DNA of 64,000 bases from Candidatus Kuenenia stuttgartensis (GTDB taxonomy: Bacteria > Planctomycetota > Planctomycetia > Planctomycetales > Planctomycetaceae): positions 1 to 64,000 of the forward strand of contig CAMDRI010000002.1 in assembly GCA_945906725.1 (NCBI GenBank), in the 5' to 3' direction. A model generated the notes under the pieces. That model worked only from the letters and a program-made list of their open reading frames with translations, did no database searches and was not told the origin of the DNA. Positions 41,900 to 45,902 of this stretch are shown in pieces. Position 1 is the stretch's first letter. Each line of letters opens with the position of its first letter. The position numbers and the translations under genes are program-made.

Positions 41900-43546
41900 T
41901 CACTCCGGTTCCCCACCATCGCGAGTCTCCAACCGTTGCAGCACGCGGCGATCCGTCTTGTTCGAATAGAACTTCACCGAGCCATCCGCGTGCAAGAATG
42001 TCGCTCCGGAACCGTTGGCATTTCCGAAACCACGAAACTGCCGATTCAAGCCTTCGCCGATCGAGCGGACGTTCCCCGGTTCGCCCCACGGAGGCGGTGG
42101 TGGATCACGATCACGAATCTCGCCGACGATGATTGTCTGACTGAGTCCATCGGTGATCTGCTCACGTTTGACCGGCCCGCCGTCATTGAACAAACCGAGA
42201 TGCACCAACCCTACCGGCTCACGCACATCTTGCCCGCCGACTCCTGCGAAATGTGTCAGCGCGAATCCACGCGGTGATCGGGACGGCGTCCGGCGCGGAA
42301 GCGAGAATTCCGGAATCTGCTGCTGCATCACTGGAATATTGACCGCCGCATCGAATGGTTGTTTCAAATCAATCCGCCGATAGATCGCCTCCTGACCGAC
42401 AAACGGCAACAGCGGAGTCACCCAACCGTGCATCGGGACATTTTCGCCCTGCGAGTCACGGCCCTTAAGGGCCGCTTCTGGGAATTGACCCTGCTGAGCG
42501 TGAAACTGATCCAGCCCCGCTGCGATGCGTCGCAAGCGCCAGTGAATCTCTTCGCGTCCAGCATTCTCGCGCTGCCGCTCACCCAGCCGAGCAAACACGA
42601 GCGGCGCGAGGAACATGCCGAAGGCCCCCACGACCACGCTCGATCTCGCGACCACCACTCCCTTCAATCGTCCGCGAGATCGCCGAACATCCGCGGCCGC
42701 GACGAAACCGAGCAACACCGCCACCAACCCCATCACCAACGCCGGCCCACGCCACCACCACTCCGGACGAACACTTGCCGCCGCGGCCAGGACGGTCAAA
42801 ACCGCGCAAGCCAGCGCCGTCACCGCGCGGCGAGACCATTCTCGCTCATCCTCATCGAACGGTGCTTCGGCCGACTCAGGCTGCCACGACGCGACCAAAT
42901 GCGTCATCGAAGCCAAGCTCGCCGCCTGCGCGTACTTCTGCGCGGGAGTCAATTCAGTTGTTGCCGTCGATGTTTGCCGTTCGTGAGTTGGCCTTTCTCC
43001 CTCTCCCCTTGGGAGAGGGTCGGGGTGGGGGACGGACTGACGATCGGCTTCCATCGAAGTGCCGTTCGCCTGCGATCGTCGTCCGTCACGCAGTCCCTCA
43101 TCCGGCCTTCGGCCACCTTCTCCCAAAGGGAGAAGGGCTGGTGGCGAGCCGGGTGACTCAACGGGGGGCGTGCTTTGCATCACGTCCCACAGGCCCTTGG
43201 GTTTGACGGCGTCTCCCGTTGGTTCCGTGGTCGCCGGGGCCTCCGCTGCGGGCGTGACGTTCGAGCCGCGCATCACGTCCCACAAACTGCGACGTGGCTT
43301 GGTCGGCTCCGCTGCAACCGATTTTTCAACAGGCGGTGCAATGACTGGAGTCGCAGGAGGAATCGCGTCGACGACGTGCGATTGCCACAACTGCTGGAAC
43401 ATCCGCTTACCGGCCGGTACATGCGTCGCCAATGAGCGACCACAGGCCGGACAGGCCGCTTCGCCGACAACAGCCGCGTCGGCTGGCTGGTCTCGATCAG
43501 CCAGTTCGGTGACGTGTCCGCATTCGCATGTCACCGTGACGGGCAT
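41900..43546 (-). CDS. DUF1559 protein with N-terminal zinc ribbon
   Basis: This 548-residue protein opens with a zinc-ribbon-like CECGHVTEL ... CPACGRSL. A variable linker, two membrane segments (VTALACAVLTVLAAAASV and VVGAFGMFLAPLVFARL) and a DUF1559-type domain follow. The DUF1559 blocks are GWVTPLLPFVGQEAIYRRI, ITDGLSQTIIVGE and FLHADGSVKFYSNKTD. DUF1559 is common in planctomycetes and sits in pilin-like or secreted proteins; here the N-terminal pseudopilin helix is not obvious. Residues from about 140 to 195 are encoded by an interspersed repeat (42991-43141). It ends 4 nt after the ABC permease gene on the same strand and is likely co-transcribed with it. Confidence 0.85.
   Translation of the reverse strand: MPVTVTCECGHVTELADRDQPADAAVVGEAACPACGRSLATHVPAGKRMFQQLWQSHVVDAIPPATPVIAPPVEKSVAAEPTKPRRSLWDVMRGSNVTPAAEAPATTEPTGDAVKPKGLWDVMQSTPPVESPGSPPALLPLGEGGRRPDEGLRDGRRSQANGTSMEADRQSVPHPDPLPRGEGERPTHERQTSTATTELTPAQKYAQAASLASMTHLVASWQPESAEAPFDEDEREWSRRAVTALACAVLTVLAAAASVRPEWWWRGPALVMGLVAVLLGFVAAADVRRSRGRLKGVVVARSSVVVGAFGMFLAPLVFARLGERQRENAGREEIHWRLRRIAAGLDQFHAQQGQFPEAALKGRDSQGENVPMHGWVTPLLPFVGQEAIYRRIDLKQPFDAAVNIPVMQQQIPEFSLPRRTPSRSPRGFALTHFAGVGGQDVREPVGLVHLGLFNDGGPVKREQITDGLSQTIIVGEIRDRDPPPPPWGEPGNVRSIGEGLNRQFRGFGNANGSGATFLHADGSVKFYSNKTDRRVLQRLETRDGGEPE
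42991..43141. repeat. Interspersed palindromic element inside the DUF1559 gene
   Basis: The left arm has CTCTCCCCTTGGGAGAGGGT (43001-43020) and the right arm has CCACCTTCTCCCAAAGGGAG near 43113-43132. These ends match a repeat I recall from many bacteria (encoding peptides like PHPDPLPRGEGE and PLGEGGRRPDEG). The element is translated in the gene's frame without a stop codon. Confidence 0.85.
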
Positions 43547-45299: not shown

Positions 45300-45430
45300 G
45301 AAGATTGCAAATTGCTAGTTGCAAATCTGAAATTGCAAATTGAAGACAAAGGACAATCCATCGGACGCAACTCAACCTTTCGGTGGTTCCAATTCGCAAT
45401 TTGCAATTTGCAATTTGCAATTTGCAATGC
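45300..45430. repeat. TGCAAAT short-period repeat pair around the moaC stop
   Basis: Copies of a 7-base unit (ATTGCAA) occur in one orientation at about 45304-45344, and GCAATTT units occur in the other at about 45392-45428. The two clusters form a long imperfect inverted repeat. The right cluster is read as the last codons of moaC. Confidence 0.82.
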
Positions 45431-45902
45431 CTTCCCGCACGAAGTGGCCGCTGCGTCCGCCGGTCTTCTCCAGCAGTTCGATGGGGCCAATCGACATGCC
45501 ACGATCGACCGCTTTGCACATGTCGTAAATCGTCAGCGCGGCGACGCTGACCGCCGTGAGAGCTTCCATCTCGACACCAGTCCGGCCATGCACTCGCACA
45601 GTTGCTTCAATACGAATGCTGTTCGCATCGACGATTTCGAAGGCAACGTCCGCACTGTCGAGGCCCAGCGAATGACACAGCGGAATTAACTCGGCCGTCC
45701 GTTTCGTGGCCATGATGCCGGCCAACCGAGCGACCTCGAAGACGTCTCCCTTCGCGACTTGCTTGTTGCGGATCAATTCCAGCGTCGCTGGCTGCATTCG
45801 CACGAAGCCAACCGCGCGAGCTTGCCGGAGCGTCACCTCTTTCGAGCTGACATCCACCATGCGACTCGCGCCGGTTTCGTCGAAGTGCGTCAGTTCGGGC
45901 AT
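45372..45902 (-). CDS. moaC: Cyclic pyranopterin monophosphate synthase MoaC
   Basis: This 176-residue protein matches MoaC, which with MoaA forms cPMP, the first intermediate of molybdenum cofactor synthesis. It has [18 protein letters not shown], the [15 protein letters not shown] active-site block, [30 protein letters not shown] and [15 protein letters not shown] at the conserved end. The last 19 residues ([19 protein letters not shown]) are encoded by a TGCAAAT-type repeat and are absent from usual MoaC. The gene is 6 nt downstream of the thioredoxin-NHL gene and probably shares its transcript. No other moa genes are in the window. Confidence 0.95.

Follow-up and report, generated by a model that had tools for sequence, protein, structure and literature searches.

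A boxC/TMECO-like repeat pair read in frame in a planctomycete DUF1559 gene and in other conserved genes

The TM/TMECO repeat (boxC, PIT) has been described in E. coli and in more than 260 bacterial genomes (Holder et al. 2015, PMC4666352). In E. coli the repeat is always intergenic, a TM sequence has been shown to form a triplex in vitro, and no general regulatory role was found for it; its type B consists of a hairpin followed by CCG, TCG or CTG and then GGGTGAGGG (Table 1 in PMC4666352). In Rickettsia, the RPEs of Ogata et al. (2000, 2002), as related in reviews, are palindromes of 100-150 bp that lie in frame in many unrelated conserved genes and are translated (PMC2229807, PMC10969869). 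The GTAG and CGTC super-families of REPs occur as inverted dimers, some of them in DNA replication and repair genes, and are also present in the PVC superphylum (PMC3733652). In Enterobacter sp. 638, about 100 copies of the repeat CCCTCTCCCXX(X)GGGAGAGGG are located at the 3' ends of genes and have been proposed as terminators (PMC2869309). Protein-coding palindromes of Rickettsia, intragenic REPs elsewhere and the triplex motif itself are already known (PMC2229807, PMC10969869, PMC3733652, PMC4666352). In the literature searched, which takes in few subscription papers, no report was found of the motif as a translated, frame-locked insert or within planctomycete genes.

The window, which is the whole 64,000-nucleotide stretch of DNA analysed here, comes from a planctomycete MAG (G000; 5.45 Mb, 92% complete, 3.5% contamination) and contains a gene for a DUF1559 protein, in which PF07596 (DUF1559) covers residues 326-481 (Pfam, E 9e-21). 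Ten other orthologues of the gene are present within the genus, and the named relatives carrying it are Planctomycetota MAGs, many of whose names suggest lakes. A sequence-only reading had proposed that a repeat of a widespread, usually intergenic type is translated without a stop in this protein, adding about 50 codons to the linker between the zinc ribbon and the membrane helices. The predicted minus-strand ORF is indeed open across both hairpins, the site in the linker is confirmed, the element accounts for 47 codons, and the peptides LPLGEGGRRPDEG and PHPDPLPRGEGE, which had been regarded as recognisable, are both found in the translation. We consider it very probable that a paired, inverted C/G-rich repeat of the boxC/TM type entered the DUF1559 linker, in frame, in a common ancestor of at least five species, and that it is translated as a tolerated, probably disordered segment. 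The structure prediction for the host protein, with a mean pLDDT of 37, was not used as evidence for the disorder of the insert. The features of the locus are given in Table 1.

Table 1. Features of the DUF1559 gene and of the repeat pair within it (positions are those of the window)
Feature	Position	Strand	Details
Host gene ORF	41900..43546	minus	548 residues; ORF list, Pfam PF07596, orthologues
Host protein layout			zinc ribbon 1-60, then linker, membrane helices about 236-320, DUF1559/SBP_bac_10 domain
Element-derived codons, residues 138-184 (LLPLGEGGRRPDEG...PHPDPLPRGEGE)	42995..43135	minus	in 5 congeners, not in 6
A half	42999..43031	plus	hairpin 42999-43019, reading CCCTCTCCC CTT GGGAGAGGG; second loop TCG; third strand GGGTGGGGG
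Variable spacer between halves	43032..43094	no strand	neutral divergence, p 0.278
B half	43095..43136	minus	inverted hairpin 43116-43136, reading CCTTCTCCC AAA GGGAGAAGG; second loop TGGCCGAAGGCC 43104-43115; third strand GGATGAGGG 43095-43103

The element (42995-43136) is composed of two inverted hairpin-plus-third-strand motifs, each of the C/G-rich intrastrand triplex kind known from E. coli boxC/TMECO. The sequence CTCTCCCCTTGGGAGAGG is located at 43001-43018, and the window holds three matches of this type at up to 3 mismatches, compared with 0.05 expected. For a comparison with MITEs, which have terminal inverted repeats and a target-site duplication, the two halves are inverted relative to each other over 22 nt (86%), and the empty sites of relatives are too diverged for a target-site duplication to be called. 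The B half has the same hairpin, followed by a 12-nt second loop and then GGRTGAGGG, with CCCTCTCCCNNNGGGAGAGGGTGGCCGAAGGCCGGGTGAGGG as its consensus; as judged from its bases, it is a hairpin and then a G-rich third strand that is predicted to be able to form class II triads, as in TM/boxC. Class II triads (C-G.G, T-A.A or T-A.T) are possible at all nine positions in almost all B halves of G000 and of a related genome, G007. At triad 3 the three bases change together, being C-G.G in one of two B-half sub-families and T-A.A in the other. One triad of the A half in the window is mismatched; the table of A-half triads was set aside, since the hairpin, being palindromic, matches in both orientations.

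The element resembles TMECO in its arrangement CCCTCTCCC-loop-GGGAGAGGG-loop-GGGTGAGGG, in the inverted pairing of two unlike motifs and in its conserved stems with varying loops (PMC4666352). The A half of the window matches TMECO type B except for the loop and one third-strand base, and an A-half query matches 3297 of 5426 E. coli genomes; no annotated feature underlies the eight E. coli matches listed. The element differs from TMECO in that the second loop of the B half has 12 nt, whereas 1-6 nt were allowed in the published survey (PMC4666352), and in that many planctomycete copies lie inside genes in one reading frame, whereas the E. coli copies are always intergenic. With the RPEs, as these are described in reviews, it shares in-frame palindromic inserts in unrelated conserved genes that are largely neutral for the protein, but Rickettsia belongs to another phylum, the build here is that of a triplex motif, and no sequence relation is apparent. 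Synonymous-site freezing, described below, was not found reported for RPEs in the literature searched, in which Ogata et al. (2002) is represented by reviews. The GTAG/CGTC REPs are likewise palindromic repeats that form inverted dimers and are partly intragenic; neither tag, however, stands beside the stem in the B consensus, which places the element outside these super-families. The Enterobacter sp. 638 repeat has an identical hairpin core, but there is no report of it as translated.

Across G000, 68 hairpins were found at up to 1 mismatch, compared with 1 for a reversed control pattern. They form about 44 clusters, of which 17 or more lie in frame inside genes; since the counts come from pattern and BLAST searches and BLAST scored 40 of the 68 candidates, the numbers of copies and of intragenic copies are lower bounds. 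This count, which the sequence-only reading had proposed as a check, shows a clear departure of G000 from the intergenic location seen in E. coli. All 17 intragenic clusters have coding-like flanks on both sides or, in the DUF1559 gene, homology on both sides, with genes called by our own codon score rather than by a gene finder; the copies were found in MAGs, to which limits of assembly and contamination apply. The hosts identified by Pfam include EutB, NadE, a DUF3418 (HrpA-type) helicase, a YgiQ-type radical SAM protein (twice), PSCyt2/PSD1, a GlpD-like FAD oxidoreductase, PolA, an Lhr-type helicase, a CusA-like pump of the AcrB family and a MerR/TPR protein. As in Rickettsia, a palindromic repeat is inserted in frame in several unrelated genes. 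The two YgiQ-type genes of G000 (L027 on C32 and L088 on C79) are near-identical, one carrying a full element and the other a solo hairpin that matches the genome G011, and the second of them may come from a related strain contaminating the MAG. In one genome of the same class (G039), 531 exact hairpins were found, many of them in tandem arrays with a 33-nt period that end in a full triplex motif.

The DUF1559 insertion lies at the same place, and is read in the same frame, in all of the congeners that carry it. In two of the genomes, G003 and G011, a common 12-nt in-frame gap removes one hairpin arm of the DUF1559 element, so that the frame is kept and the palindrome is lost. In the other host genes, congeners either lack the element and are read straight through or carry a decayed copy or a solo hairpin. 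The solo hairpins of G011, in YgiQ, HrpA and CusA, are consistent with the in-frame loss of the stretch between the two hairpins of an element that was once complete; comparable deletions within motif pairs, leaving a hairpin, are known from E. coli (Holder et al. 2015, PMC4666352).

An artefact, either an assembly error or a non-coding region upstream of the element with only a shorter protein made, is highly improbable. The source genome is a MAG, and in G006, a further related genome, the EutB gene and the gene at C4:19.6k are split over two contigs, the matched flank starting within about 50-140 bases of the contig end at the insertion; but the same in-frame insertion is present in five species with separate assemblies, and each of the 17 host genes shows homology or is flanked on both sides by coding sequence. 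A product starting downstream of the element, which the sequence-only reading had named as the finding that would speak against it, is unsupported, as the orthologues keep the zinc ribbon and the motifs that precede the element, and the residues there are under purifying selection (pN/pS 0.37-0.38). The B halves inside genes are all in sense orientation and in the frame PLPxGEGGRRPGEG (13/13 in G000 and 13/13 in G007), and the B half is free of stops in five of its six frames. With equal use of frames, the probability of a single frame by chance in about 20 distinct genes is about 5e-14, a value that assumes independent insertions and counts genes common to G000 and G007 once according to our own matching. 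For the second hairpin all three frames are used, and the lock therefore concerns the entry (B) side. It may plausibly come about because a single peptide survives: mainly insertions read as PLPxGEGG in loops and linkers would persist, and the element would be translated with the host protein as a tolerated linker or loop segment. Simple tolerance leaves the lock partly unexplained, because another open frame of the element scores as more disordered than the frame used. That the lock results from where or how the element inserts, rather than from selection on the peptide, is unlikely in our view; its limitation to the entry side would suit such a bias, but the 5' junctions inspected show no apparent conserved target sequence. 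We know of no codon-phase-specific insertion mechanism.

The pN/pS of the element in the DUF1559 protein is 0.89-0.96, with a wide bootstrap range (0.58-1.68), compared with 0.13-0.49 elsewhere in the protein (0.13 in the DUF1559 domain, 0.20 in the membrane region). The spacer divergence in Table 1, obtained from seven paired insertions, equals that of flanking 4-fold sites, and all spacer length differences are multiples of 3. The near-neutral pN/pS of the element, together with spacer changes in multiples of 3, indicates that the peptide drifts while the frame is kept. The nucleotides of the B half are frozen: among G000, G006 and G007, 4-fold differences amount to 0/52, 1/50 and 0/31 (1/133 in total), whereas the corresponding values are 0.30, 0.25 and 0.28 for 4-fold sites in the flanks and 0.24-0.42 for the 3-nt loop (B half versus flanks, Fisher p 5e-8, 3e-5 and 9e-5). 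The compared genes were picked for the element in G000, and the comparison of G006 with G007, picked on neither genome's conservation, gave the same outcome. Selection on the peptide as the sole cause of this conservation is ruled out, since synonymous sites are frozen too. The freezing occurs where copy number is high (G000, G006 and G007), and decay occurs where it is low (G003 and G011), with B halves in the latter two genomes at a mean of 3-5 mismatches to the consensus. In the reading that we prefer, the nucleotide sequence of the B half would be preserved for as long as the family is active, either by selection on the folded DNA or RNA motif or by gene conversion within the active family. 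That conversion among copies keeps the B halves identical without any selection is possible, though we give this account less than even weight: the relation between freezing and copy number agrees with it, but the sub-families stay put at each compared orthologous site, none of which has switched, and conversion from random donors, which would mix them, is therefore disfavoured; the lower conservation of the A half also argues against conversion. Doubtful as well is the co-option of the element, in which the B half would be selected because its hairpin or triplex acts gene by gene on mRNA stability, translation pausing or DNA topology. The freezing of B-half 4-fold sites while loop, spacer and flanks drift points in this direction, as do the class II triads at all nine positions and the change of triad 3 as a unit; that three-way change, however, may represent a single old event, the B halves decay in G003 and G011 in the same genes, which are still functional, other species do without the element, and no general regulatory role was found in E. 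coli (Holder et al., PMC4666352). A further reading, which we put forward tentatively and think rather unlikely, is that the triplex-type family has become a frame-specific coding element entering conserved genes in sense orientation as PLPxGEGG, its fold being actively maintained inside them while peptide and spacer drift, so that in element-rich species it would be the DNA or RNA motif, and not the peptide, that has a function or is served by a dedicated maintenance system.

The concept of the protein-coding palindrome, known from Rickettsia, is extended by these data to planctomycetes and to a class of repeats described as strictly intergenic in E. coli. As congeners offer filled, empty and solo-hairpin sites for the same genes, selection on peptide, frame and nucleotide fold can be told apart; the data suggest a drifting peptide under a conserved frame and fold. 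Conserved enzymes can hold tens of repeat-derived residues in their linkers and loops.

By some route, an RPE-like, non-autonomous small palindromic element would have spread to these genes. Like REPINs (PMC3116915), the element has two inverted hairpin units with a variable middle, but no RAYT-type (Y1_Tnp) gene flanked by it was found among 31 loci examined. A Y1 transposase of the RAYT type was rejected as the mobiliser among the loci examined, as none of the 31 Y1_Tnp loci contains a good element hairpin and no clade tracks copy number in a Y1 tree from which 13 of 45 Y1 loci were left out. A phage origin was also rejected, with only four short partial matches, all on unannotated faecal contigs, and an Rfam search returned nothing meaningful.

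Other translated repeats were observed near the element and in its host genes. A second repeat family, made of GCAATTT units, is located at 45300-45427 of the window (22 + 17 genome matches, 0 in the control) and is predicted to form part of the translated C-terminal end of a MoaC-like ORF (45372-45902, minus strand). The HrpA-type helicase of G000 carries a further repeat-like translated insert, EDEAPAEPVRDATPRPNRGSVGASPSRNEG, besides the triplex element. In the Lhr-type helicase (two loci), the YgiQ-type protein and the PSCyt/PSD1 protein, congeners carry other repeat-like translated inserts (...DERRGQETRAERV) exactly where G000 has the triplex element, and the same loops thus seem to collect different repeats.
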